From Chondrosia reniformis (lineage: Eukaryota > Porifera > Demospongiae > Chondrillida > Chondrillidae), in assembly GCA_947172415.1 (NCBI GenBank), contig OX359196.1, positions 1,490,501-1,554,500 of the forward strand: a stretch of 64,000 nucleotides of DNA, read 5' to 3'. Numbering within the stretch: position 1 is the first letter of the stretch; every line of letters starts with the position of its first letter. Both the position numbers and the translations under genes were made by a program. The notes under the pieces were generated by a model that worked only from the letters and a program-made list of their open reading frames with translations, did no database searches and was not told the DNA's origin. This document shows, piece by piece, positions 19,454 to 54,000 of this stretch.

Positions 19454-22400
19454 CTATACATTCAGTTGCAGATATTCCATCCCTGCAAGTCCTTCGATGA
19501 TATTGGATTCAAATGATTGCTTTATATCAGAAAAAGATGGCCTCTCTGCTGGATCTTCACACCAGCACTTCATAATTAGATCATAACTGCAGAAGTGGCA
19601 TAATATTCATGACATGATTTACAGTATAATGGCTCCATAAGAGCCAGAGTGTAGCCTGCAGTAAGAACATCAGTTTTTTGTTTCATATACATTATACGTA
19701 TACTGAACATACGTACATATACACATGTACACACTCACACTTCATCAGGACAATAGCTTGGTTTCTCCAATCTATACCCACTTGAGAGTCTTGGAATTAT
19801 TGTGTTCTGTGGAATGTCCCAGTACGGTATGCCTCCTGCAGAGAGAATTGATTAAAAGTATTAATATGTTTCACTTCTTTTAGAAACATAGTACTCACCA
19901 AAAGTGTATATTTCCCACATTGTTATGCCATAAGCCCATCTATATATATGTATGTATTATGTAGATGAATAAATATAAGTGTAAGCATTGGGTGTTTATA
20001 CATATTATATTAGTGTGTATTATACTCACACATCAGACGTCTCTGAAAATATTCCTTCCATTACTGTTTCTGGAGCCATCCATCGGAGAGGAAGCTTGTC
20101 CTTCAAATCAGACACATACTCTGGTATTTCTCTGGATAACCCAAAGTCTGATATCTTTAATGTTCTTTTCTCATCCACCAGAACATTTCGACAGGCGAGA
20201 TCACGATGAATTATACCAAGTGATGTTAGAAATGACTAAACATATGTGGTACATACGTATATTGTCTCACAGCAGATTCTCATTATTACATGCAATGTAC
20301 TGTATATTTAATATAATGCAGTAAATTTAATGATATTATTAATTGTTTATACTTTCTGTATATCATAAGGAGGATTGTATATATTATACAGAATACATGT
20401 GCAATCATAAACAAACATATAACACAATACAACTGCACTCACAAAATTATTTAATAAATTTCTGCTTTCTAATTTTTAAACTGGACAATATTAATGTTAG
20501 TACATTGATCATAATAGGAGATTACGTGACTGTATGCAGACATTAATTCATTCTACAGGGTTAAATATTAAGTAGCTGTACATGTATCAAAAATCAGTGA
20601 TCTTAATTGACAATGTATGTTAGATTCACCATTCCATCAGCTATTTGAAAGCCAAAAGACAGAAAATCTTCTTTTCCCACTTCTCCAAGTGAAACATAAT
20701 GTAAATCATTTAGTTGCACTTGGTTAGGAATGTTACTGTCTGCATTTGTCAGGTTGACATCCTCAGATTTGTTGTTTATTTCTGGTAGAATATAATCTAC
20801 CTCATTATCCTTTGTTGTCTCCCTAGTACCTACATTTTTCTGAGGATATACACTTCTCTTTAAGCTAACAGAAACTAGCTCTTCCTTTTAAAATAGATAT
20901 ACATGTATATACAATCTCATACATTTTCCTTCCAGAATCTCAACCAGTCTCTCAAGTTTCCAAATGGTACATATTCCAACAGAAGTGACACAGGAGCTGA
21001 CAGTGTAACACATCCAACCATCCTAACAACGTGAGCATTGCCTTCAGAAGAAACTTTCTTCAACAACTTAATTTCAGACAGAAAGTTTTCTACATCTCTC
21101 ATTGAAAGTCCGTTATTACCTTATTAAGATTATTAAATGTGAGTGTTACTCAGTAACTTGCTTCAGTATTAAACATTATTGTTTAATACATTATACAAAT
21201 GTATATAAAAACATACAGATCATACTAAATAGGTTTATATTCTGTGGTGTATATAAGTATATATTGTATAAACACTTTCCTGACCTTTTAGTACTTTAAC
21301 TGCTATTGTATATGGACATTTGCCCTCTGCTATAGCTACCATAGTGTGCTTCTTCACTTTAGCAGATTTAACTTTGAAGGAAAGCAATCCTTTGTAGACA
21401 CACCCAAAGTTACCATCTCCTAACTTTTCATTGAGTTTAAAGTCATTATGAGTCAACTCCCAATCATCACTCTCAAATTCTTGAGGTACCATGGCTAGCC
21501 AAGTCTTCTACATGTATACAGGTACAAATCGATGCTTACTGTCTCATTTTAGCTCTACGTACCTTAGAGATACATAACATTTTTTGCCTTATAGAGAATA
21601 TCAGGACTAACCATGATCATTTCATCAGAAAGCATTTCACCAATACTGCATGAATATACAGTATGGCAATGTATATGCAAGAACAAATTAGTATTATTAA
21701 ATTGAAACAGGTATACCTATATATTTGTGTTGTATGACTACAAACCTTTTTTGTTTTGATTTCCATCTGATCCATGCAATTATAGTAGTTATGAGAGCAA
21801 TAATTATTACAATAGTCACGACTAAGAACACTGAAACAGCCACTAATATTACCATTTCAAAAGGTAAATCATCTATATATATGGCAAATTGTATAAATGA
21901 TATATACTGTACAAATAAATGTTGCAGTAATATATGTAAATGTGCATGTATAGGCACAAATACACTAACCATTGACCATAGGATTAGGTTCATTATAACA
22001 CTCCATTGAACTCAGGTTACCATGTTGGATAGTTCTGAGTTTGTTTACTTTTTCAAAATTCATCATTGCATCATCCACTGAAGATGTTACAACATACATG
22101 CACATTGCCAATTTGGTAAGATATAATACAGTATGTCAATTAAATCATAATGTAAATGTATCATTGAAAATCCTACTGTTAATTCCAGTGACATTTAAAG
22201 TGACTTCAAAGCACTTATTTCCCTTTACTTCAGTGTACTGAATGTCAGAAACAAGTACATGTCCCAAAGGAACATCAGCTACTACAGCTATGGTATCAGC
22301 CAATTCAAACCTACCATAAGATTGTTGGAGTTTTCATATACGTATGTACGTACATGTACACACTAAATATACTCAATTATGAAACAATGACAGCTATATA

Positions 22401-23786
22401 TCAATCTTATATGGATGCTTCATTTTTCAACACTTTGAGTGTTATTGTGAATAAGATCTTTGGATCAAGACACCCAACAAAAATTTAGGCATATTGGATC
22501 AGATGCTCAAAGATTTGAAAGATGAACCATCCAAAAGTTTAACGTAGTTAGGAGAAATCCTTATTCCATTAATATACCTATCAATGTTGTTTAGTTTCCT
22601 TCCATTCCTCAGGAAGGCAAGAGTCACTGTATTCTTAGCTTGAAGAGTTGGGATGATGACGGCACATGACAAGGGCTCACCATCAGTTGTAGCTATGACC
22701 AAAGTCCTTCCCAACACTAAACCAAACAAGAATCCCATTTTCAACAGTTATATATCTGTATGAGTATGTACAGAGATTGACCTCACCAGAATTTGGTCCT
22801 GTTAGATACAACAAGTCATCATAGAATGCGTATGTCTTCACTTTAGCACCAGTTCCAGACTCAACTGTCAGTTGTCCAAGCTTTCCAGTTAAGTCTCCCA
22901 TGGCACATCTCAATTGACTCTCTACTGTACAGTCACTTGTATAGTTACCAGTCATGGATACATTAAATGGATTATATGTTGAATAGGAGCTGTTACAAGA
23001 TTCATTTAGCACAGTTGTTGAAATATACCAGTTCAATTTCATGTTCTCCTATAAGCATAATATACTTTTATAAGTTAATCACAATGTCATATATGTATAT
23101 ATGTCTAATCCATGCACATATACTGTATAAAAATTATAATTGCATTAATGACTTACCACAATATTTTTTGAAATGTTCACAGCAATAAATGTTGGTCCTA
23201 AAGTCCAGCTGGTGTATTGTATAATCTGTTCCTATATATCCATGAACAAATATACGTATATATATACTTAGTATGTATATCTTTAAATATGCTACATCTA
23301 TTTTAGAACAAAAAGCCTATAAGGAACTATGTAAACCTAGTGAGAGCTCGAGCTTAGGATGAAGATATAAGATATTTCTCCTTCTCCTGTACATATTGTA
23401 TGAACTATATAACATAATATTTGCACTGCATTGTTTAATTTTCTTATTGCACAAAGTTTTCTTTCTAACATTCAAGCTTAGTCATAAATATGAAACTTTG
23501 TATATGGTGATAAGGTAAACAGAATTTCTCAATTAAGTAAATATCAGTAAGTTTTTGTATTATACATATATAGTATGATGCAGCATATACAGACTGACTA
23601 TAGATATAAATCCATACAGAATTGGCCCTTCAAATGTAGCTAGAGATGTTGACAGGTAGCTGAGGTCTTTTTCAAAATGTGGAGCAATGTAATTACAATC
23701 AGTATCATTAACCTGTATAAGTACAAGGACAATTGCAAGGACATGTATATATTACAGAAATTTCTTCTGGGCATATATTATCATAG

Positions 23787-23820
<34 letters not shown>

Positions 23821-25575
23821 CAAAGCTCTTACCGCATGTCCTATAATTGAAGCTGGGCCTAGCAGTGGAACTTCCATAACAGTCCACACATCAATCAGCT
23901 CATTATTAGGTAAGTCACCGACTGCTATAACATCTTGAGTAGTTACACCTTCTATAGTAGCATTCCTCCATGGATCAAATATTGCACTTCGATCAGTACA
24001 GCTAATGTTTTTACCACCAATTTGGTCCAAAATCTGATATGCTAGCAATTCACTCTCAGAAGGAGAGGAGAAAAAAGTGTGAAAGTACTTTATAAATTGT
24101 CGCAAGGTTGGTTTATCTTTGTAAGATGCCCCCAACTGTAGTGCAGATGATATCCGAGCACATGCTAATATTTCTCCACTCTCCTTGTCGCGGATACTTA
24201 TTCCTTTATTGATAAAATTGTTAATCTTCACATTGCTTGAATGATGAATTATCATGGATTGAGCTTGTGGAAGAGGAGATGGTTCAATTATGATATCATC
24301 GACTAACAAGATGTCTTCTTCTGAAACAGTACTGGCACAATCTTCTGGTCTCACTGAGAAGGGTAACTGAATAAGAAGACCTTATATATTGTCTTCAGAT
24401 TTAACAATACAGTCAGTTAAATTTTGAAATTTAAATTAATTACTTACTATTATGTTATCGTGAAGGATTATTTGAACTGGTACAGAAAATGTCAGATTTG
24501 ATGATCTTGTAATGAACAATTTAGTCACTGTATATAAATCTGTATATATATTATATTGAATAAATGTATATGAACTTATATAATTGGGAGTGTCAATTGC
24601 AAGTATCCTATATAATTTATTTTAATAATATTTCACACAAAAATTAATCTTCAATATTAAGTAATTTAATACAGCTATACCTACATGCAGAGTAAATTGA
24701 AATGTAAAATGCATAATTAAAGCCTACTTGGAAATAAGATCAAATCATTTGTGTACAGTACAATTGCCATATACAACTAATAACGAACAAGATATATATG
24801 AGCATAATCACCGAAGGATGTGATTATAGCCTTACTTGTGCTGTTCAGGATATTTATACATGTCCTTTAGAAGCATGTATTAATTATTAACTTATATATA
24901 CGTACATAACATGCATGTATACTTACATCTGTAGTGTACCAGATAGACCCTTCCACCAATACCATTCACAAAGTCAGCAAAGGCACCTGCTGAGGGTAAC
25001 TCGAAAGACACTATCACTCCACACAGGACTGGCTCATGTCTAACATACAAGACTACAGATCGAAACATAATATCATCCATCGATAGTCCAGTAATACTTA
25101 TAGTGCTGCCACGGCTGGCTGTAAGGTTCAGTAATCCATTTCCCAGATACTCCTTTGTACATCTCTTGTTTGGTGGTAAGGTATAGTCTGTAGGCAGCTC
25201 ATGTATGGTAAAATGATAATTTGACAGAGTAGAGGGTTCCAAAGTATTAACTGAAGTAGTAAGTGTCTTTCTTTGTGAATCGTATCGAAAAAACAAAAGA
25301 AGTTGCACTCCATTCATTTTACTTTCAACATATCCTTAATAGCAGAAAAATATATATACGTATATAACTGATGGTCACTTCAATTATCCGACTTATATAT
25401 AAATTAAAGCAATATTTACACTCAAACAGCTTTAGATTTTGTATCCTTACTACGTATATACAGGAATTATAGGTCTAGATGAAGTATTTATCTTACCACT
25501 GTTAAATGGTGTCACCTGAGCACCTCCTCGCCACAACAGGCTCAGTAGTGTAACTAGGTAGCAGCACACCGCCAT
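19454..25575 (-). CDS. Receptor tyrosine kinase with SOD-like ectodomain repeats
   Basis: Nineteen exons on the minus strand run in continuous phase to about 1090 residues: 25575-25497, 25334-24927, 24527-24448, 24366-23833, 23712-23599, 23231-23157, 23048-22787, 22716-22528, 22287-22177, 22077-21970, 21872-21746, 21645-21612, 21507-21285, 21119-20923, 20884-20630, 20235-20030, 19939-19899, 19835-19739, 19586-19454. A signal peptide (MAVCCYLVTLLSLLW) leads about four Cu/Zn-SOD-like units with conserved motifs (MGDLTGKLGQLTV; LTGPNSVLGRTLVI; VLCGVIV, ILACARI, LSCAVII). The paired cysteines of the SOD fold persist, but most metal-binding His are lost. One TM helix lies near residues 660-686. 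The cytoplasmic kinase is complete: GDGNFGCVYKG, AVKVLK, EIKLL, an 85-residue insert with DYILPE and HYVSLGE, HRDLACRN, DFG, WMAPE, and CW..DP..RP. It should be catalytically active. The exact border of exon 8 to exon 9 is the weakest join. Confidence 0.85.
23789..23818. repeat. (TA)n microsatellite in kinase intron
   Basis: About 15 TA units immediately downstream (minus strand sense) of the donor of the exon ending at 23833. Confidence 0.85.
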
Positions 25576-26159: not shown

Positions 26160-29100
26160 ATGAAGACAGTTTCCTTCCCAAAAGTAATTTTGTTAACAGT
26201 TATACTGAGTCACTTCTCCGCAGATTCAAAGCACCAAACCTTCTGGGTCAAGCCATTTCCAGATGGCAACTGTGACAACAACCTACCATGTAAGACCCTT
26301 CAAGATTATTGCCAAAATCATCCTTATGTATTCTCTAAATCAAATTCAACATGGATATTTTTGCGTGGTATTCATATGATTGAAAATGGTAGATTCAATA
26401 TTGTTAATGTTGAAAATGTTACAATAATGTTTACTTTACTACAGCCACAAAAGGTACTGTTATGAAATTTGTGAGGCCAAGTGGAACCTACAAGATAAAT
26501 AATTGTACATTTATAGGTTACTGGTCACTCAGCATCAACATATCAGAGTGTGCTCAAAAGATCAGTAATAACTGTTGTTTTCATTTGAACTTTACCAGCA
26601 ATAGACTAGATAATGCTGAAGGATTTTCAGTAACATACTTGCAATTGCCAGTCTCAAAAGTTTACCACAACATAATCATCAATATATCTAATTGCATATT
26701 TGAAAACAGCTTTTACTCCAATGAACATCCCATAACCCCCACCATCAAAGTGAATATTAGTGGGAACTACCCTAGCGGAATATTCATTGTAACAGTCAGC
26801 CATTCAACTTTTGCCTACAATTCAGACACTCTACCAGTAGGTTTTGAAGGAGTCGTTCATGCTATCCTTCCAATGAAAGTGTCTCATTCAAAGACCATTC
26901 AATCAACAACCATTATTGAAATACAGAAATGCAACTTCACTAACTGGACAATGGCAATTAATATTACCATTTTCTACCCAAAACAGAATAAAGCTATCTT
27001 ACCCAGTCCTCCTAAAATTAAAATTGAGAAGTCTTGGTTTAAAGTAAAAAGTCGTTTTAGCATTCATGAATGTGTGAAATGCTTTCAGTCTTACTTTCAT
27101 TGGAGAATACTAGAGGGACGCCCTCCTAAGGAGGAAGTATCTGTAGGGTCTCTAAAGGATGTAGCAATTGAAATGACAGAATGTAAAATTGTCAGTATCA
27201 TTACAGATTACATTCATACAGTTATGTACTTGCAAGGTTTTTGGAAGTATCCTGTACGTTTTACTAATAATGACATATTTGTAGACTTTGCGTGTGGTAT
27301 ACATTTAAACAATTCTGTCCTTAAATTGCAAGGTAAGAATTTTATTAACCAAGAGAGGGGAGATTGCCAACAACTGATAATGTCTTACAACTCCTTGATT
27401 GTATTCAACGACAACAGTCAATTGCATTTTTCCGAGTTTAAAATAACACATAAGAAAGGAAATATTCTATTACCTCCACTGGAAGGCTTTGAAGGGACCT
27501 ACAGTGAATATGTAAACTGCATAACTGGGAAAGCAGGATGTAAAGGATTGTGTTTCTTTCAATTTGAACATGACAGTGGTCACCTTCTCTCATCAAAAGA
27601 AGTGCTCAATCACAGTTCATTCATAGAACCTGATATTGGCCTGCCTAAAACAGAGGGTACTTACTTCATATATAATGGTCACTTACTAAATTGTAGAGTG
27701 GAAACAACTGATGGGTTGATAGCAGTGGATAAAACTTTATTCATGAAATACCTCATAACACCAAAAATATGGAAGTTCATTTACAACTCTACTGAGGAAA
27801 TTATATCATCACCGGCTTATTACATATGCTTATGCAATGAAGAGAACCTCAACAACCAATCACTTTGGGACTGTAGTCAAGAGACATATGAAGTAGTACC
27901 TCTAGGGCATCAGGTGTCATTATATGCCAGTGTCTTAGGTGATTTGAATTCTTTTATACCTCTTCATTTAAAAATAGAGACCTCAGAGAGCAAGGAACTG
28001 AAGGAAAGCATTCTATTTGTTGATATTTATTCACCTTGTACAAAGGTATTTGCACGAACCTTTGAAGAACGAATACCATTGAAAAATATAACTGTTTCAC
28101 TTCAAGCAACCAGTCAGAATAAGGACTTAACCTTAGAGCACAGAGTGGTGCTACATGTGCCTTTAGTGTGCCCCATTGGATTTAAACTTATCTACAGTAA
28201 TGCGTCTGCAAACCCATTTGCAAGTTTAAAATGTAATGATGTTTTAGAGGAAACTGGCTTTGAATGTATCAGTAAAAAGGAGGTATTCTACAAGCAGACT
28301 AGACACTACTATTGGTTAGGCCTTGCTGGCGATACTTTGGTTTTCACAAATTATTGTCCTCTCTTCTTTTGTAATAACATTCTTCATGCAGAAGGAATAG
28401 CTATGAGTGACATAAATTCAAGCAAACAATGCAATAAACAACAAATACGTCAAGGTTTCCTCTGCAGTGAGTGTCCTCAAGGATACAGTTCTGTCTTTAG
28501 AGGATTACAGTGTACAAAGTGCCATGGACCTTGGTATTTGATCTCTCTCGTCTATGCTATTGTCGGATTGTTACTCATTGCTCTTCTCTTCTTATTCAAC
28601 TTGACAATAGTACAGGGGACCATTAATGGAATCAGTCTCTATGCTAACATTATATACCTCTACGATGACTTCCTACAGGAACATGCTGGTGAACCATTTT
28701 ACAGTATCATTTCCATTCTTAATTTTGGAAGTGCAAGTGGAACCTGTTTTTATGATGGAATGAATGAATTTGCAAAAGTAATGCTGCAATTTGTCTTTCC
28801 AATTTATCTCTTCTCACTTGTGGTTATCATTATCATTGGAGCACACAGGTATAATTTCAGGATATTCAAGGTAAGCTTTGTAGCTAAAAGAGCTGTACCT
28901 GTACTAGCTACACTGATGATGTTAACTTACACCAGTCTGACAGGAGCCATCATCACTGCTCTCAGATACACAAATGTCTACACTCATGATTCTATATAGG
29001 ACCCCTTCACCACGCTGGCTCTATCAGCCAACCCTTCTGTACTTCCAAGGGAAGCACTTGGCTTTGGGAGTAGTTGCGGTGATAGCCTCTCTTCTCTACC

Positions 29101-30834: not shown

Positions 30835-33800
30835 CTAAACTGTCACTTTATGGACTCTCAGAGCGCCTGCTAACGTTTGAGCAATCTCCTCATGGACTTC
30901 ATAGCTCGAAGAGGTATCTCGGAGAACTTGAATGAATCTCTTGACCGACTCTACCGTACCGCTAGTATACAAGTGATCGACCAGTTCTTCGTTTGCCTCT
31001 TTGGAATTGTTCTTATTCTGAATGGTCTGTTTAAGCGGCATGTTGATAATTCCTTTAGCAAAGAGGTCTTCTCTGATATCCTTTGTGCAGAGCTGATTCA
31101 CTAAGATGGTGTAAACTGATTGAATGGCATCTTGTAATGAGGTAGAGGGAGACAGAGCCATTTTGGACAAGCTGACTACAGAATTGCTATCTCCTCCTTC
31201 AGATAACCTCCTTGAAGTAGGAATGGAAGGGTTCTTGGAGGATGGCCCAGGTGTGTCAGTGAAGGGTGGTGGAGTTGTCTTTAAGTATTCAGTTAGCTTC
31301 TTCTCTTCAATTGAACCACAGCTGCCTACACGAGAGAAAAGTATAGACATTCTGAATCAAGAATTTAATTATAAATGTCCAAAGTACAAAGGCATACTTT
31401 GATCTTGAGATTTACTCTCTCCTCCTTCGCTTGTCTGCTCTTGAAGAACCCAGTACTCCTCAGGGTCATCACATTCATTACTTGAAGCTGTCTTTAGAGT
31501 AAACTATTGAAAGTATGATAATTATAGCTGTAACATACAAACAAACTACACACGTGATAAAAATAAGAAGTTAGACAAGTTAGATTTGCTACACACAATG
31601 GTGACTCACTGTTGCTTCAGTGCTTTCAACTGGAAAGAACCAGACCTTTCTAACAGGCACTGAATGCAACTCTCTACATCTTCCCTTTGGTCTGGTACAC
31701 TTTAGTGTCATGTCTTCTTCTTCAGATTCAGACAGTAGGGCCAAGTGGGGAGAACCATTTTGACAATCGCAGATAAAGCAAACTTGAAGATAAACTTTCT
31801 TCAGGAACTCCTCACCCATAACGGACCTACTGACTGCTTCAATTTCTTCTTTTAAATCACCTTTAATGGCAGCACAATGATCATGAAGCTTCTTCAAATC
31901 AGCAGGACACGGACCCTTCTTACTGAGGATGAAGCTCTTGAAGCAAAAGACAGCTACCTCAATCCTTCCAGGTATGTCCATCAGGAAGACCTCTAGATTA
32001 CCATAGGTGTACCTGATGGTGGATCGATCAGAATCATTAGGACATGTTTTCCACTTTTTCTTGTTAGCTAAATGGACAGCTAACTGGCAGAAGATGCTTC
32101 TGGGCAGATCAAGCAGATTCGCACTGAAGGCATCCTCTTTGAAATTGAAGGCAAAGCAAAGAGGCTGCACGGCTGTGCAATCAGGAATCTCAATATGGCC
32201 TTTGGGTAGGACCATTGGCATAAAGAACCTCCCTGGTCCAATTTCAGCTGTGAAGGAGCGTTTCTGCAGCACTTGAAGAAGCCATTCACTTGGGGTTTCT
32301 TCACTGATCCCAACTTCTTTAATAAGCTCTTGATAATCTCTCTCGTTAATTATTCCCTCATTTTTGAATCTCTTAGTTGCAACCCGCTGAGGATTACGTG
32401 GATGAAATCGAATTATGAGAAGCTTTGAAATCTCCTTGTACAGAAAGGTTGTATCTGTACACACCCAATTAGATTCAAGGGGAACTCCCTTCAGCTCATA
32501 GTAGGCAAAGAAGCCAAAGTGGTGGAACAATCGAAGTAGTGCCAGAAACTGGTCATCAGCTTGACGACCATCAATGTAGTCATTGGAAAGACAAAAATTT
32601 TTGAGGTCTTGGCATTTGATAAAATGGTGAGGGGTTCGCTTTATAGTAAGATCAAGGAAATACCACATCAACGGCATTTCCAATCGAAGGCAGCACTCCT
32701 TGTCGGAGATAAAGGAGCGAAGAAGGTTGAGGTAGTCCTGATCCTCTTTAGTAGCAGGATGGTCTTGTGAGAGGTACATGAGGTTGTTGACAAGAAAGGC
32801 AGTCTGGTCTGGAGCATCAACAAGGTGCTCACGATAAGGCTTTGAATTCAGCTCCTTCAAATGGGATTCAATGGAATGAAGGATTTCTTGGTTATTCCCC
32901 ACTTCCATCAACTTATCCTTAAAGGTGCCCACAAGAAACATTCGGAGGCGTGGCACCTTTATTTCCACTGGAAGCTCTGGTTGCCGTAGTGATGTGGTGT
33001 AGATGTCAGATAAGGAGTGCTGAATGACATCCCAGGCACTCTTGGAGGAGGAAATGGACTCGCTGGTTTGGCTGTCTGGTCGGTATGTCTGCTTCACTCG
33101 TTGGCTGAGATTCTGAGAGGAATCAAACACATGGATGTAGGTCGCTGGAAGAGTAAGCAAACAAGGTAAGGAGTCTTGAAACTCAGGTTGGCCTCCAGTG
33201 TCAAGGAGATGGATGAACGTCTTTTCAGTCAGCTTCAGCTCATCTAGATTGGTGCTCTGCAACAAGTCATCCCGTGCTTTGGAAAGGCTTGTGAGCATAT
33301 CATCCGGCTGTTCAACTGGAATAGCTTCCTCCATCTTCCTTGGAGGTGAAATGGTGCTAAGGCATGGATCCTCAGTGACATCAGTCACCAAGTGCTCTTG
33401 ATCAAGTTGCTCTGCAGTGCTTTCTGTGCTAGGAAGGACAGGGAAACCAGGATATGTGTCCTTCACTTTGTAATCTCCTTCAGCCGCACACTTTCTGATG
33501 GAACCTTCCATTTTGGAATCTGTGACTAACGTCCACACTGATGAACCTTCCTCTACCTGATACTGCTCCGAAGTGACGGCCACCACTTCTGGTCTCTCAA
33601 GCACTCCAGTACTAATGTGAATCTCCTTTGATTGGTTGTGGGCCAGAAGATGCTTCAATGAAGACTTTCCTACAAATGATGCTCCACAGACTACACACCT
33701 AATGACATTAATAATCACAGATCCGTGAGTGTCCTTTGCCTTATGGTAATGCTGATTCCAGCTCTGCAAGGACAAAGTTAACAATAAATAACTGTTAAAA

Positions 33801-36800
33801 GTAGTTTCATTATGTCTATATCTACAGCAACTTGCACGTTTTCATGTGCTTCACTTGATATCTATCAAATAGGAATGACCAAAAAATGGCTGCCCTATCC
33901 AATGTATTAGCAAGCAACACCCCATAAATCACCTTTGAAGTGATTTTTGGTTATATTTGGTTATTTGCAGCCATTAATGCACGCTTTTCTAAAAGCCAAA
34001 ATATTTTTTCGTCTTTTATTGAATGGACTATCACTAATAAGTGAACTTGTGCGGACACGTAAAAATTATAAATCGTCATAAATATTTCCGAACTAGGGAA
34101 TAGACAGCCCTAAGTCCGAATCTGCTCTACAAGAAACATGTTAATTGTGAAGAGTGAAAATTGTGATCTTCTCAGACACCATTTTTAGATAAGACATCAT
34201 GGTTTTTAACATATTTCTCTTGTCTAAGGCGGTTTTTTGCCAAGAAAACTTTCAAATCAATTTAAAACATTTACAAAAATGATGTTAGAAATAGGAATGG
34301 CAGTGCTCACTAATACATCTGCAAAAAGTATTGAAATAAGACACTGATTACATGATAAGGCTAATCATACAGAAGTTGCATATACGTATACTGAAAAATA
34401 GGTAATTTAACCATACACTTCTGTGTTTGGGCGCACCATTCCTACTTCTAAGTAAATGTTTTTCATTTACTTGTTCGTATATATATCTTCTGTAACATGA
34501 AGCCATACAATGTGATTGGCAAATGAAAACAATATAATATAATACAATATAAAAATGCTAACTGCATTTTCTGTTGATGGAGCATCACTAACTTCTTTGT
34601 TGTCGTCTTCATCTTTTTCTTCTTCGTCATGGTCTTTTTCTAATGTAGTTGACTTATCCTGACCCTATAAGATATGCAAGTCTTGTATCATTATATATGA
34701 ATTGAAGGGTTTATATCTGTTAAGCATTACAGTATGGTACACGTCAAAACTATTGTGAGATTCAGTGGCAAGTTACATTGCAAGGTATAAAACAATGTGT
34801 CCATTCTATCAAAAATATTAAAATTACATGTTTACAAATATATATATTGCACACTTCTCACCTCATCAGACAAAGACATCAGATATTCCTCAATATGATG
34901 ATGGTGATTACTTTGAGCTAACATTATTGCTGATTCACCAAGCTATTCAAATAGAAATAGGTCACATTATACAAGTAGTAATGTAATATGCAATATTCAC
35001 TTAATATAGATAAATAAAGATAAAAATAGGACCCCAGCTATTAAATATTAAAGCAGTGCATTTCCATACCTTTGTCACAGTCTTTGGATCCATTTTGAGG
35101 ACAGTCATCAGATATTGTACTATCTCAAGTGAACCATTCTGTGATGCACAGTGTAATATATTCCATCCATTCTAAAGTGACATGAAAACCATCATGATCA
35201 ATGGATGGACCTATCTACGGTACAAGACAGAAAAAAGTTGACGGAATACATGCTTATTACGTATGCGCCTACGTGTCTTCCTACGGTTTATCTACGGGCG
35301 TAGAATAAATTTGCTATGCCTCTCTTATGGTTAATCGCTATGGGCATACTAAAGTAGTATTAATCGATAAAGTTGAATTAATGAAAGACGTGTTAACGTA
35401 CTTCTCCTAGGCGTGATATTTATCAGAATCAAGGATGATTCGCAAAAGGCAATAAATAGTTAGCGCGTATAGTACTTATTCAATCTACGGTAAGTGGTTA
35501 TATTACGTACGTTTATGTCTACGCCTTATCTACGGGCGTAGATAAAAACGTATACGCTCTTGCTACGTATCCTATTACGGGTTTATCTATGGGCGTAATA
35601 CGTCAACTTTTTTCTGTCTCGTACTGTATATCATACACACTTAATCAGTTACATGTACAAGTGGATTCACACATCTCACCTCATTCACAGTCTGTGGATC
35701 CATTTGACAATCTTTAGTGAAATACTTTACAAGTCCAAACCGACCATAACGAGCTGCTATGTGCAATGAATTTGATCCATTCTATACACAACAGAAATGA
35801 GGAAGCATCAATAATATATAATTCATTTCAATGTCACTTTTATAACAGACTCATTAAATATAGAAGCTGTGCATTTCCGTACCTTTTTCACAGTCTTTGG
35901 ATCCATTCTGTGGACAGTCATCAGATATTGTACTATCTCAAGTGGACCATTCAGTGATGCATAGTGTAATGTATTCCATCCATTCTAAAGTGATGTGAAA
36001 ACCATCATGATCAATGGATGGACCTACTTACAGTAGACATTAAAAAAGTATACGTTTAGTTTCCTTTATGCAGAGTTTTGTTCTTACAAAAACTGTGTGA
36101 AGACGATACACAAAGAACGATCGTCTTCAAAAAACGATCATCTGTACTTTCTAAAGCATGCGAAACGGTCTTGCGTAGGAACGTATGCACATTAGAAACG
36201 CTTCATGTTAATTATAGTCCAATTGTTCAAGTATTTCACAAGTAAGCTAAACACGTATTAACCCTTTCCGCGCCAACTTATTGCGTGGGCGGCCCCATAC
36301 CTTATGACTGACTTTTTTGAAGGCCACGTGATGTACGTAAGCGCTACGTGTAAGGTAAGGTTGTTTTTACGAATGAGGAAGTGAAGCGCTACGTGTAAGG
36401 TAAGGTTGTTTTTACGAATGAGGAAGTGAATTCCCGTCAAGTTTAGCCTTTCGAATCAAGTGAAGAGAACGGACCAGGCACTAACCCTAACCCTAACCCT
36501 ATGCGGTCGCATTCAGAGCCTGATCAGTTCTCTTCACTCACACGGTACGTATACGGTTAATTCAAAGGGTTATCGGCTGCATATAATTATCATGACGATG
36601 TATATCGTCTGCGGTCATTAAAGGGTTAGCGTGTTTAACAGTACTTTACAACTTACGTCGGAATGCAAGCAATAGACAATTGATCGTTTTATTCATTTCG
36701 TAGGCCTATAATAAGGACGATCTAAAACACTTTGGGACGAATTGAAGACTAAGCCAAAACAAAACGTCAACTTTTTTTGACGTCTACCGTAGATACAACA

Positions 36801-44289: not shown

Positions 44290-47200
44290 GCTGTCCTTGA
44301 AATGACTAAACTGTCACTTTATGGACTCTCAGAGCGCCTGCTAACGTTTGAGCAATCATCTCATGGACTTTATACCTCGAAGAGGTATCTCGGAGAACTT
44401 AAATGGATCTCTTGACCGACTCTACCGTCCCACTAGTATACAAGTGATCGACCAGTGCTTCGTTTGCCTCTTTGGAATTGCTCTTATTCTGAATGGTCTG
44501 TTTAAGTGGCATGTTGATAATTCTTTGAGCCAAGAGGTCTTCTCTGATATCCTTTTTGCAGAGCTGATTCACCAAGATGGTGTAAACTGATTGAATGGCA
44601 TCTTGTAATGGAGTTGATGTGGTGGATGGTGAAGTTGTACATTTCCTTGTGGATATCTCCTGAGTGTCTTTAAAAATAAACAATAGGTTAATAAGAATAG
44701 TACACATGCATGTGTACATTGTTTAAATTAATCTACTTGAAAGGAAGTAGTGGCCAGTTAATGTGCAGGCCCATATGCAGCTCAAGACTGGGGCCGGGGG
44801 TTCTTCTGTTCTCAAAGTGGAACTCATCATATAGATTAACATGTGATGCTTTCTCATTCACCATGTGTGAAGTGTTTTGCACGCCGCCCCCAATTTCTGG
44901 TGTACACAAGGAGAAGCTCTCGTTAGCTAGCAGCTAAGGCTACTGGTATAATAATAAGTTGCTACTCAGGACTCCTGTGAAGTCAACTCATTACATCAGG
45001 CCTGTACACAGGGGGGAGGGGGGTAAACGAACACCCCGCTCACTTAGATCACATCACATGCAAAAATGTTACAAACTACGTAATTGTTTAATTGTATATC
45101 ATTATGATAGATACGTACGTACTGTCTGTTGAACTCAGTTCCTTTGAAGTATTAACTGACTGTACCATCCAATAACCAGACACCATTTGGAGTGAACACT
45201 AATAACAAGAGACATTTCAGTGTTTAGCAAGTCACTCACCAAGCCTAACAAAGTGTTATGGAACACATTAAAAATTTTCAATTAATGAACTACAACCTAA
45301 ATCTAAAATTATTCAACTGATTGATATACATACATGTACTGTACATACAATTTCACCTACTTCTTCAACAGATGTCAGCTACATTGTTTTTGAGGATACA
45401 TTTCCTGTGTATGTTTGGATTGCATGCAATAGAATGAATCTTTCTGAAACAGAGCCAAGTGAATATAATCTCTGCTACAGTTGCACACGAAGCCATACAG
45501 CATATTGACAGCCCTCCTCAAAGTTCTTCTTAATGGCCATACATTCACCATAGAGCCATTTGATGTCAGCTGATGCATCTTTACCTAAACGGCAGCACTT
45601 GCTGCAAACAACGGCAACCTCAATTCTAGATCTACCAGGTTTCTCCAACAGGTATACTTCCATGTTCTTCCTTAAATACTTAATTGTATATTTGTTGGAT
45701 TGCCCGGGGCAGATCTGGTACTGGTCTCTCCCTGCCAACTGAACTGCCAATTTACAGAAGATTCCTCTGGGGATGTTGAGGAGATTCTTTGAATAGGGAT
45801 TTTGCTGGTCCTTGTAGTTGTATGCAAAGCAGAGGTTCTCCACAATGCAGCAATCAAATTTCGGTGGGTCTCTATTTGGTAGGACTAGTGGAATGAAGTA
45901 GTCATCTGGTTTAGATGGCACTTTAGCAGAGAGATTGAGACTGTGAAGGACTTGGAGAAGCCACTCCGAAGGAATATCTAAGAGATCAGAGCAATCTTCA
46001 CAGCTAATTATACCAAATGATTGTAGATTTTCTGTTGCTTCTGACTTGGGATCAGGAAAGAACTCTATCACAAGTATTTTAGGTGGTATGTCAGCAAGGT
46101 AAAAAAGAGCCCTAAGGAATGAAATAAGCTAAGCAGTGCTTCATACTGCTCATCTTGCTACTCCTTCTCTATGCAGTCACACTGAAGACAGAGTTTCTTG
46201 AAGTCTTCAAATTAGAAAAACTTTTTATGAATTAAAGCTATGAAGACATTCAGCATGAACCATGCAACTGGCATTTCTAACTGTAAACAGCCTTTTTTGG
46301 ATGAGATGAGTAAACACATGTACAGTTTGTTAACCAACTGCTTCTCCTCACTAGAACAACCTCCACAATTTGGCATTTAAATTGTTAACAAAGAAAGGTA
46401 TGTCCTTATCTGCTTTGACAATGTTTTTAAATAAGGCTTTGAGGAGAACATTTTCAAGCGATTCTTGACTCTATCAAAAATTACTTTTGGATCATCTGAT
46501 TTCATTATCTTGTCCCTGAATGTACCAACCATAAAAATTTGAAAATCTGGTTGCTTCACTCCTTGAGGTAGATTGGCTTTCTTGAAAGACATTGTAAAGG
46601 CACTGGACAGTAGGCGTTGCATCATGTCCAGACCATTCATGGAGCAGTGAACAGCTCGGAAGGTTTCACTGTCTGATCGGTAGGTATCCTTAACTGGTTC
46701 ACTGAGGTCCTTTGAAGCATTGAACACATTGATGTATGTAGCTGGACGGTTGAGGAGGAATGGCAGAGCTTCTTGAAATACTGCTTGGCCCCCTGTGTCT
46801 AGGAGATGAATGAAGGTTTGCTCCTTCAATTTTAACTCTCCTACATTTGTATTCTGACAAAATTGCTTGTATTCCTATGCTAGAGAAGAAAGAGAATCCT
46901 GTGGCAGAACTGATTTAGATAAAAATATTTTGTTACTAGCTCTTTTTTGCACAGTATTAGAAGTAGTCTCTTCAACAGGTCTTGGTTGTCGATATTTGGA
47001 ATTATTTGCTGGGGAGGACTGTACATCATCTTGTGTAAGAGATGTGCTAACAAAGGTAGATTGATCTACCTCAACATGGGAAGTGGTACCAGATGAAGGT
47101 GGAATGGTTCTGTCAATTCTGACTGTAGGCAAGGAAATATTCTCACCGTACTCATGAATAGCCTTTCTCACGGCTTCTCCCAACTCTGTGTCTGAGACTA

Positions 47201-48019: not shown

Positions 48020-50227
48020 TCAAAGTACTACTACTCTTCTGTTATTACAATCTGCTATGTAAATGACTCCATCACTATTAACTGCTACACCAAAAGGACA
48101 ATTTAATCCAATATCGGTCACTTCATGGACACACTGTCCATCTTGGGTGAAGATGCTGAGCTTATTAGCACCATATGAAGCGACCACTATATGTTCATCA
48201 CTTGTGACTATTATACCATGTGGACACTTCACAATGCCATTTCCAAACTGCCTAATAAACTGACCATTCTGTTGAAACACTTGAATACGATCACCATCTG
48301 TGACGTAGACCAAATCATCAGGTGTTATGAGAATGAAAGTTGGGTGACTAAACTCCCCTTCAGCTTTACTCTTGTGACCAAACCTGTACAGGAATGTACC
48401 TTCTTCTGTAAACACAGAAACACAATGATTCCAATACTCTACCACAAATATATGTCCCTCCTTGTTCACTGCCAAACCACATGGCTTACTAAGTTGACCT
48501 TGATTTTTACCTTTGCCTCTAAACTGCCTCACAAATTCACCAGCTGCTGTGTAGATACTGATGTAGCCATTACTCCAGTCACTGACTAGCACATTTCCTG
48601 TTCTACTTAGTGCGATTCCATACAACCAACCACCACTCTTGACTTTGAAGCTTCTTATAACTTGACCCTGTCTGTTTAGGATAGTCACTTGTCCTTTGTT
48701 ATCTGAACAGTATAGCAAACCATCTGGACCCACTGCCACACCATAATACTTAGAACCATAATTAAATGAAAATGATGGATGCTTAAACTCCTGCTTGACT
48801 GCAGTAATTCTGCTAGCACCTACTACCTTCACTTCTACTGGACTACCTGCTACATCGTGTCCTCCAACAGTCACACTCAGATTACACTTCTCTGACAGAA
48901 CACTCGCAAACTGCACCTCATATGTGCCATCTCTCATGTCTGCTACTTCACCAAACACAGGAACACCTGCTTTCACAGGATTAAGGACAGCCAACACTTT
49001 GTCTCCTCCTCTGCACTCATTGCCTCTCTCATCTCTTGTCATTAACTTGAAATGCAAAGGAGGTTTCTTGTTCCAAGGGCTTATTCTGCAGGTAATGACA
49101 TTGTCCTTCACTTTCACTCCTTCCATAGAGCAGTTTGGAGGATGGGGACTGTGATGGATACTTCCAAGTGATGAGATGTACTTTTCCACTTCTTCTATCT
49201 TACAACTCATGAAAGCAACAGAGGGTTGGATAAAGGCTCTTGGCATTGAGATACTGCTGTTGAGAGATGACATGCGACTGACAATCTTCTTTGTTACCGA
49301 TAACCGCTCTTCTGTTGTTCCATTCAAACTCAACTCTTCAGACAGGCAATGAAAATCATCAAGCTTCTTCAGGCTGACCTTCAATTCTGTCTCGCGTCTC
49401 TCGAGTTCTCTCCTTCCCTTGTCTTCTGCTTCCCTCACTTCAGCAGCAAGACCATCACAGCAGGTTGTCACCATGGCAACCAGATGTTCCTTTATTCCAG
49501 CAATCTCTTCTAACGCATTCTCAGACTGCTGTTGGAGACTAGCTTTGCTGTCCTGCACTTCTTGGAGAGCAGAACTGATTGCCTTCCTTTGAGTCATCAC
49601 GAGTGAAAGACACTGCGTCAAAGTGCTCTTGTTTGACTCTCCCAGCTTATCGTCAATGTATGACACTTTGTGGAAACGATGTGTTTCGACAGAAGAACAA
49701 ATGTGACAAATCATTTCTTCACAATTATCACAGTAAAGTTTACAATTCTCTTTGTGTTTTGAGCATTTGAATAAATCCTCTTTCTTACCGCCTTGTTCAA
49801 ACATTCCTTGCAACGGCTTCATTTCGTGTTTCCTTAAGAGCTTGTGAGATTTGTGTTCATCGACGCATTCCTGGCAAATGAACGCGTCGCAATTCGAGCA
49901 GAAACTTACGGCAGATCTCTCTCCTTCGTGATCCCCTTGACAGATGACGCCTTCCTTCCGGTACCGGTTGCTGAAAGCCTTCCTCAGAGCGAAGGGATGG
50001 TTAGAAAGATCCTTGGGAGACAAGGAGAACACTTCCTCGCAAGTCTGGCAGGAGATTCTGCAATGGAGAATTTTCTCTTGGCATTCTATCTTTTCGCACA
50101 AAGCTAACGAGTGGAGACACGGTAGACATTTTAACTCTTCTACTTGTTCTCCGCAATTGACACAAGAGAGACTAAGCTGGCTGGACTGAAGGGATGGTAC
50201 CGGTGGGATCGCTTGAACCTCCGCCAT
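48020..50227 (-). CDS. TRIM-NHL protein (TRIM2/3/71 type), intronless
   Basis: A single 735-codon frame. Order: a divergent RING-like Cys cluster (about residues 22-66, CVNCGEQ to CQTCEE); B-box 1 (about 94-140, CSNCDAFICQECVDEH); B-box 2 (about 153-195, CDNCEEMICHIC); a coiled coil (about 200-330); a filamin/ABP280-like domain (about 362-460, ending VTVGGHDVAGSPVEVKVV); then about six NHL beta-propeller blades (about 475-735, with repeated GIAVN.DG...V.D..N motifs). Relatives are E3 ubiquitin ligases and/or RNA-binding translational repressors. The RING spacing is irregular, so ligase activity is uncertain. The start codon is the first ATG and gives a natural N-terminus. Lack of introns fits either retro-origin or the single-exon TRIM-NHL expansions in invertebrates. 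Confidence 0.9.
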   Translation of the reverse strand: MAEVQAIPPVPSLQSSQLSLSCVNCGEQVEELKCLPCLHSLALCEKIECQEKILHCRISCQTCEEVFSLSPKDLSNHPFALRKAFSNRYRKEGVICQGDHEGERSAVSFCSNCDAFICQECVDEHKSHKLLRKHEMKPLQGMFEQGGKKEDLFKCSKHKENCKLYCDNCEEMICHICSSVETHRFHKVSYIDDKLGESNKSTLTQCLSLVMTQRKAISSALQEVQDSKASLQQQSENALEEIAGIKEHLVAMVTTCCDGLAAEVREAEDKGRRELERRETELKVSLKKLDDFHCLSEELSLNGTTEERLSVTKKIVSRMSSLNSSISMPRAFIQPSVAFMSCKIEEVEKYISSLGSIHHSPHPPNCSMEGVKVKDNVITCRISPWNKKPPLHFKLMTRDERGNECRGGDKVLAVLNPVKAGVPVFGEVADMRDGTYEVQFASVLSEKCNLSVTVGGHDVAGSPVEVKVVGASRITAVKQEFKHPSFSFNYGSKYYGVAVGPDGLLYCSDNKGQVTILNRQGQVIRSFKVKSGGWLYGIALSRTGNVLVSDWSNGYISIYTAAGEFVRQFRGKGKNQGQLSKPCGLAVNKEGHIFVVEYWNHCVSVFTEEGTFLYRFGHKSKAEGEFSHPTFILITPDDLVYVTDGDRIQVFQQNGQFIRQFGNGIVKCPHGIIVTSDEHIVVASYGANKLSIFTQDGQCVHEVTDIGLNCPFGVAVNSDGVIYIADCNNRRVVVL

Positions 50228-50462
50228 TTGTATACAGATCGAATCTACATTAGAATTCTAACTTCCGGTTAGTATAGAGAAGTCTATGATAATGGACAGT
50301 ATAAGTGCTGAATCATTAATATTGTCAAAAACGCTATTCAGGATTGTTATAATAGTGCGTTGGACATTCTATAGCTATAACATGGTTATATATAGTAGTT
50401 AGAATTCTTTATTTGTTAAGCAAGAAAGTTTAGTCACGAGGGTGAGAGTTTAATTGCCCAAC

Positions 50463-51074: not shown

Positions 51075-54000
51075 CTACCAAAGGAAACCCCTACATTGTC
51101 CTGAACCGCAAAAACATGGTTCCTGTCCATTGATAAAATCAATCTTGTAATCAAATGTCAGCTCCTCTCCGGGAAAGATATCTCTTGCTGCAAAGAATCC
51201 CACATGAGGAAATCTAGGATCCATTGACTCAATCCAGGCATTGTATATGGTCATATTGGGTGAGCACTACATATACACAACAAACAGAAACATATGCATG
51301 TACAATTCAGTTATGTATATATGTATTTGTACATGTTTCAATGTTGTGCTAATGGACAAGTTTGCCAGTAACTGATGTAAACTTTACTGCTCATTAACCA
51401 GTACAGAAATTTAAAATGTATTAAGAGTCAAAAGGCATGAGTTAACGAGTGAATAATCTCACAAGGTAAGAAGGTTGTGATTTCCCTTATCAGCAGATAA
51501 GGGAATGGCCAAAGAATGGCTGACAACCATATGTACAATGAAATATAGGGATCTTAAGATCTAAAGCTGAATTTAAAGCTTTGAAGCTACATACATAAAT
51601 GCTAAATCTAACCGAGTGATTGCAGAATCTTGATATATTGCCATATCTTGTTGAATCAATACTGTAAGGTTTATGAGATGAATCAGTGTCAATATCAAGG
51701 TCAAACAGGTACGTTAGTCCCTTTGAGTTGGAGATTCTCCCTTGATGCTCAGCCATTTCATCTGTAATTATTTCACCAACAAATTCTACAATAAAGCTGC
51801 CCCTAAATTAAATAACAATAAGTGGAAACATACATATTATATTTATTCAGAGTGCACTGTTTCCTATATGCAAAGATGATTTAAGGTTTGTCCCTATAAG
51901 AGAGGATATCTTTTGGATGGTTCATCTTTCGATAATTTGAGCGTCTAAAATAAGTTTGACACAGTTAAAATTCTATTAAGAAAGAATATCCATAGACTTC
52001 AACAAATACCTCATGTTAACTGAGTTATTAATAAACTACGTACGTACTGTAACAGAAAAGGAATTGATACTACACAGAAATTCTATGTACGTACTTACTT
52101 CTCTATGAACACAACTGATTTAATTCCCCATCCTTTAGCTTGTGTCTTGAATATGCACACAGGAATCTGACGTCTTTTCTGCAAAACTCTTCTGTGACAA
52201 GTAGGTCCACACCCACAGGAGGAGCAGCATTCAACAAGGGGTGTGGCAGCACTAACAATTACTTTTCCCTTTTCACTATAGCAAGGCGTGGAACCGAATC
52301 CACTTGCACATACACAGGTTGTGCATTCTCCACCTTCAATACAGCAACAAACAAAGTCTCTTGTTCGTGGTAGTGGCTTTATAATTTCTGGTATCAACCT
52401 CCTATCAGTGATGTAAGTGAAGTCTAAGGGAGGCGGAATGGTATCCACCGTATTTTCAACATAAATATAGGCTTCTATTCCATGGCACGTTTTGTTGAGG
52501 TAGTATTCCCATGCATCCAGTGTGGCTTGGTAGAGAGCATTGGATGATGCCACTGTCTTATAGTGGACTGGTCTGGTGCTGATGAGGTAGGTGGATAGAT
52601 GGTTTGTCGTCAGAGAGAGGATATTAGAATTACAGGATTCAGTAGAAACACAGATCTGCCGTGATAGCTTCATTCTGGGACGGAATGAAAGTTTCCTGCC
52701 TGATTGTTTTCCCAATTCATCTGACGGATCTCCCTCTTGTTTCTCTGGCTGTAAGGAATGTGGGCCAGTCCTGAATGAAGATGGCGTCTGCGTGGTCAGT
52801 TTCACTTCTCTATTTGGAGTTGCAGGGGGAGAGATACTCACTTCAATGGAGCCGCTGGGAATGGTTGGACTGTACAACTCATTCATTGTTATTATTGAAT
52901 GAGTTGTGTGATGCAAGTATTGACTTGCTGAATCTGCTGAGTCAGCATTGCTTTGCCAATCCCTGGGAACTGACACAAAGTTCAGTTTTGAAGTATCTCC
53001 CTCAATTTTAATATGTTTCTTGATGTTCTGCTTGGCTGCCAGAAAGGCTCTCCTTTCCCTTTTGATAATGCTACTCTGAAACACCTTCTTCTGTTTAAGG
53101 GAGTGTCTTTGAATAGATCTGTCTTTTAAGCTCACAAATGTCTGATCTGGTTGTCTCGTGCACACCTTTCGCATCTTTTTTCCTTGCGAGTTCACTTTCT
53201 CTAGCTCCACTATATAGATTTCATTGCTATGTGTATGCTCCTGCATACAATCTCCTTTAGAGGCAGAACTAAATTAATGAGAAAGCGAAATCACTTAATT
53301 AGGAATTAATTATACATATAGGAACACATGAGAGGTGAACTGTATTATATAGGAACACATGAGAGGTGAACTGTACTATATATATAGGAACACATGAGAG
53401 GTGAACTGTACTATATACGTATATAGGAACACATGAGAGGTGAACTGTACTATATATATAGGAACACATGAGAGGTGAACTGTACTATATATATAGGAAC
53501 ACATGAGAGGTGTACTGTACTATATATATAGGAACACATGAGAGGTGAACTGTACTATATACGTAGGAACACATGAGAGGTGTACTGTACTATATAGGAA
53601 CACATGAGAGGTGAACTGTACTATATAGGAACACATGAGAGGTGAACTGTACTATATACGTAGGAACACATGAGAGGTGAACTGTACTATATACGTATAT
53701 AGGAACACATGAGAGGTGTACTTGCGGTGCTCTTTAGCTAAAGTAGTAATGTAATACTGTCATACGCACAGCTAGCCTAAAAAACACAAATGGAAGAAGG
53801 GTTGAATTTAAAGTTGACAGAAGTCATTAACATTGATCAATATTGTAGTGGGCATATGATAGAAATAGCAAATCAAGCAGCATTTTAACTGAGATTGCAA
53901 GAAAACAAAAATCAGAACTGCTGATTTGAAGCAATGTCTAGAACATGAAATTTATGAGATTGTGTAAATAATAGGGTTGTCCTCTATAGTAATTTATCAC

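Follow-up and report, generated by a model that had tools for sequence, protein, structure and literature searches.

Cu-only-SOD repeat proteins (CSRPs), a known family in animals, have been described as proteins of 4–12 repeats, often with Cu sites, that are either secreted or attached through a GPI anchor, and they are reported to be required for frog tail regeneration (PMC13017621). For oyster dominin, a SOD protein lacking Cu, a role in the recognition of bacteria is reported in the same source. The gene considered here, designated W, from the demosponge Chondrosia reniformis, probably encodes a receptor tyrosine kinase with a new type of ectodomain, which is drawn from this known repeat protein.

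Gene model and domain layout of the receptor

The window, i.e., the whole analyzed stretch of 64,000 nucleotides, corresponds to positions 1,490,501–1,554,500 of C. reniformis chromosome 8 (assembly with 15 contigs and a total of 117,379,552 bases); the genome note of this species (PMC12181767) mentions RNA-seq (run ERR10177766) as well as an Ensembl annotation. Wnt matches, of which 25 were counted exon by exon, are in keeping with an animal source. In the exon model derived from the sequence, W is located on the minus strand (25575..19454 of the window; OX359196.1:1,509,954–1,516,075) and comprises 19 exons, which are separated by 18 GT-AG introns and join in phase into a coding sequence of 3201 nt (1066 codons plus stop). 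The exons were recovered again by spliced alignment, which serves as a consistency check because the profile was built from the models of W and of its copies A and B themselves. The protein consists, in order, of a hydrophobic leader, four SOD-like repeats (about residues 28–137, 138–262, 263–383, and 386–546), a tail (547–648), one transmembrane (TM) helix, and a tyrosine kinase. The arrangement proposed in the earlier note (a signal-peptide-like leader, about four repeats, one TM helix, and a complete tyrosine kinase in phase over 19 exons) was thus reproduced in the model, the leader being judged by eye. The interval given there (21746..25575) ends at the TM exon, and the kinase exons reach 19454.

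All exons lie on the minus strand. Exon 1 (25497..25575) carries the start codon and the hydrophobic leader (MAVCCYLVTLLSLLWRGGAQ...), and a similar leader exon is present in copies A and B. Repeat 1 and the beginning of repeat 2 are encoded by exon 2 (24927..25334), a further portion of repeat 2 by exon 3 (24448..24527), and its end together with most of repeat 3 (AVGDLPNN..PLLGPASIIGHA) by exon 4 (23833..24366). The end of repeat 3 and the start of repeat 4 fall within exon 5 (23599..23712), and repeat 4 continues through exon 6 (23157..23231) and exon 7 (22787..23048, its core) into exon 8 (22578..22716), where its end (GRTLVIATT) is followed by the start of the tail. The C-terminal tail common to CSRPs occupies exon 9 (22177..22310), and its remainder and the stalk occupy exon 10 (21970..22077). 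The TM helix (near residues 652–672; exon 11, 21746..21872) was assigned by hydropathy (peak 3.46, next hydropathy window 1.63), and 12 N-glycosylation sequons were found in residues 1–650. The juxtamembrane exon 12 (21612..21645; 34 nt) is the least certain, having been placed by phase and by likeness to copy A.

The kinase N-lobe is encoded by exon 13 (21285..21507), with GDGNFG of the G-loop and the Lys motif AVKVLK, and by exon 14 (20923..21119), which also includes the hinge. These are followed by a fast-changing insert with Tyr motifs (exon 15, 20630..20839), the catalytic loop HRDLACRN with DFG and APE (exon 16, 20030..20235), the C-lobe (exons 17 and 18, 19899..19939 and 19739..19835), and the kinase end with the C-terminal MEYLQLNV and the stop (exon 19, 19454..19586). 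All of the kinase motifs are thus present, and the domain matched Pfam PK_Tyr (2.7e-75); the PDB matches, namely, the RET, FGFR, VEGFR, and EGFR kinases, indicate resemblance only and assign no class. Among 74 genome matches to exon 16 (150 of 303 candidates scored), 25 were located at 0.97–6.37 Mb of chromosome 11, and the tyrosine kinases of this chromosome appear to be a local expansion.

Several other frames were observed in the window. An 861-residue open frame (26414–28999, plus strand), Cys-rich and then with several TM stretches by eye, gave a sub-threshold DUF7630 match (7e-5); this frame and the receptor gene, on opposite strands, seem to be divergently oriented on either side of a gap of some 0.6 kb. 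The minus strand carries a Roc-like GTPase frame (31589–33841; Roc match sub-threshold, 1.8e-4), a Roc-like frame similar to it by eye (45475–46874), a TRIM-like 745-residue frame with a B-box, filamin, and NHL repeats (48020–50257), and a Pre-SET motif (52095–53273; 8.6e-11), which is likely part of a histone methyltransferase exon.

The CSRP ectodomain, its copies, and its proposed origin

The ectodomain of W is homologous to CSRPs (E = 4.2e-31), the alignment running end to end with the C-terminal tail included. The reading of the Cu/Zn-SOD-like repeats in the earlier note as a metal-free SOD fold on a receptor tyrosine kinase is supported, the fold being a probable one. It was overlooked there that the ectodomain appears to be an entire CSRP, tail included, rather than newly assembled from SOD domains. 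W is nevertheless not a CSRP as defined (secreted or GPI-anchored, with no further domains), since a TM helix and a kinase come after the CSRP part on which it is built. In profile comparison with the Cu repeats of CSRPs, repeat 4 of W gave 99.9% (E = 7.2e-35) and repeat 3 gave 88% (E = 3.3e-6); repeat 2 aligned over only 24 columns (12%), and its position and Cys pair weakly suggest that it is SOD-like. Structure prediction gave a SOD fold for repeat 1. The two cysteines of the SOD disulfide, previously said to be kept, were found as a pair in all four repeats (85/131, 199/258, 312/373, and 448/535), and the tail cysteines are paired too. In repeat 4, about 8 residues lie between GRTLVIA and the last Cys, which corresponds to a short loop VII.

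Copies A and B are arranged in tandem on chromosome 11 and are 89% and 81% identical to W, respectively, over a 197-residue stretch of the ectodomain; in the DNA alignment of the three genes, from the ectodomain through the kinase end, exons are conserved and introns have diverged. The model of copy B requires two non-AG acceptors (exons 3 and 12), yet nonsynonymous differences from A are almost absent in its kinase. The distant copy D (C11:5.533–5.541 Mb) has TM and kinase motifs, and one domain order is common to W, A, B, and D. Adjoining D are three CSRP genes, C, E, and F (5.543–5.560 Mb of chromosome 11), with intact Cu sites and with no kinase found near them by the W kinase search (E up to 1). 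When stretches of repeat 4 from W and from C were searched against the genome (E up to 0.1), W, A, B, D, C, E, F, and one further SOD-repeat gene on chromosome 8 were returned; more divergent members could escape such a search. At about 7.58 Mb of chromosome 8, a 907-residue frame has SOD-like repeats split by a long Ser/Thr/Pro-rich stretch, and the W kinase search gave no match there. Four other receptor tyrosine kinase loci (10 kb each) contained no CSRP match.

In repeat 4, all four Cu ligands are kept in CSRPs C, E, and F (WHVH, GH[FY]NP, and VxH), as are both residues of the Cu-only signature (Glu and Asp), whereas none of the four is kept in the kinases W, A, B, and D. In W, A, and B, the Cu His sites are occupied by YIS, Thr, and Ala (in W, YIS for HVH and Thr454 in exon 7 and Ala526 in exon 8), and Ala replaces the signature Glu (Ala479 of W, exon 7). 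In D, they are occupied by SVN, Val, and Tyr, with Pro for Glu and Asn for Asp; the Glu of the E110/D113 signature is thus lost in all four kinases, and the Asp is kept in W, A, and B. The combination characteristic of Cu-only SOD enzymes (four Cu His with E110/D113) is not found in W, the Zn-site His are absent from it, and the earlier statement that the copper and zinc His are mostly replaced holds. As far as the sequence indicates, no repeat of W keeps a copper site. Pfam Sod_Cu scored above the cut-off for CSRPs C (3.6e-9), E (4.8e-7), and F (1.1e-8), W scored below it, and D gave no hit; taken singly, the sequences of the kinase-fused copies point weakly to SOD. Owing to the loss of the repeat 4 ligands and the low Sod_Cu scores, catalysis and copper sensing are unlikely in these receptors.

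Phylogenetic analysis placed the W, A, B, and D kinases together (support 100/99) among 8 sponge kinases, and their ectodomains together among 13 rows (94/93) and among 7 sponge rows (92/92). Long branches, including D, were flagged by the program, and the ectodomain branch was unstarred; an earlier tree of the kinases, for which the outgroup was poor, did not resolve D. Exons 5, 6, and 8 are of equal length in W and CSRP C (114, 75, and 139 nt), and the phase of the donor after the tail is the same. The matched groupings, equal exon lengths, and donor phase fit, but do not prove, an origin of the receptor in a single event that joined a CSRP gene to a TM-kinase gene.

Selection and candidate function

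Between W and A, dN/dS was 0.10–0.11 in the kinase, which is under purifying selection, 0.26 in repeat 4, 0.32 in the tail, 0.34 in repeat 3, 0.64 in repeat 2, and 0.86 in repeat 1 (0.50 for the ectodomain exons overall). Between A and B, repeat 1 had a dN of 0.138 and a dS of 0.037 (32.5 nonsynonymous vs. 2.5 synonymous differences; p = 0.006 in a one-sided Fisher test, without correction for the 27 region-pair tests); compared with the kinase (710–1060, insert included) and with repeat 4, p was 1.2e-5 and 0.002, respectively. No such excess was found for W vs. A (p = 0.70) or W vs. B (p = 0.31), dN thus exceeding dS in repeat 1 in one of the three pairs.

W is probably a receptor tyrosine kinase with a four-repeat CSRP ectodomain lacking a Cu site. 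Ligand binding by the outer repeats, with signalling by the kinase in the manner usual for such receptors, is the most likely mechanism, and the role reported for the Cu-less dominin in the recognition of bacteria speaks for it by analogy. The SOD scaffold would have been freed from catalysis, and its outer repeats would bind a protein or glycan ligand, which may be a microbial molecule, a self molecule, or a CSRP from nearby. Receptors would be brought together by this binding, the kinases would phosphorylate one another, and the Tyr motifs of the insert and the C-terminus may then recruit partner proteins. Ligand recognition seems to fit better than metal or redox sensing, since the copies that carry a kinase no longer have the Cu ligands and since the outermost repeat has changed quickly between two of the copies. 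More tentatively, and with much less likelihood than the receptor mechanism itself, these genes may form a small diversifying family of sponge recognition receptors (immune or self/non-self), in which catalytically dead SOD repeats would be a variable ligand-binding scaffold wired to a kinase and possibly paired with the nearby Cu-active CSRPs.

The main rival is redox sensing via cysteines, which we regard as unlikely: disulfides in the SOD repeats or in the tail would be oxidised or exchanged by extracellular ROS, and the receptor would thereby be switched on, e.g., after wounding. This would agree with the paired Cys in every repeat of W and in the tail and with the link of CSRPs to the ROS-linked regeneration of the frog tail (PMC13017621); however, Cys pairs of the SOD type are structural in the fold, and the repeat 4 pair is no longer present in copy D. 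The proximity of three CSRPs with intact Cu sites to copy D and the predicted contacts of CSRP repeats with each other (PMC13017621) would suit an ectodomain that mainly docks to the Cu-active CSRPs of chromosome 11, serves them as a signalling partner, and itself recognizes little, but repeat 1 changes fast between copies, and we consider such docking quite improbable. Even less credence is given to separate CSRP and kinase genes, or a decaying copy, having been misread as one gene: the non-AG acceptors of copy B would be in line with this, but W has no stop or phase break, the same order recurs at four loci, and W–A dN/dS is below 1 in both the kinase and the ectodomain. The ectodomain and kinase exons thus appear to form one gene, as proposed earlier. 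An active SOD ectodomain producing peroxide at the receptor, for which oyster CSRPs with Cu sites, reported as SODs (PMC13017621), could be cited, is practically negligible in view of the absence of all repeat 4 ligands from the four kinase-fused copies.

Comparison with known systems

Protein searches returned none in which SOD repeats are combined with a tyrosine kinase; sponge proteins are scarce in the collection, and other sponges may therefore well have such receptors. No published description of such a protein was found in the literature as far as it was accessible, and the accessible text of a paper on the holozoan tyrosine kinome (PMC8662651) contains no mention of ‘superoxide’ or ‘SOD’. 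The earlier view that no known receptor kinase is built this way thus agrees with both searches. If the ligand-binding receptor proposed here is correct, it adds an ectodomain type not found in the searches for any receptor tyrosine kinase, an antioxidant repeat protein was co-opted as a receptor in an animal of early-branching ancestry, and the poorly understood CSRP family gains a possible link to signalling. Because sister repeats with and without Cu binding are encoded in the same genome, they can be compared directly.

Among known systems, RET, FGFR, and VEGFR, receptor tyrosine kinases with a long insert, share with W a leader (putative in W), an ectodomain, one TM helix, and a split kinase with HRDLA.RN, but differ in the type of ectodomain. 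The Cu-only SOD5 of Candida, which among PDB sequences matched the CSRP-containing profiles best, lacks the Zn loop, as does W; however, it is an active single-domain enzyme, and its Cu ligands are absent from W. Oyster dominin and the Cu-less CSRPs of arthropods and tardigrades are, as predicted for the ectodomain of W, extracellular and SOD-like without a Cu site, but they are not kinases, and the likeness of role is an analogy only. CSRPs in general resemble W in their tandem extracellular SOD-like repeats, each with one disulfide and without a long loop VII, and in a homology that spans the tail, whereas they often bind Cu and have no TM helix or kinase, W having no Cu site left.
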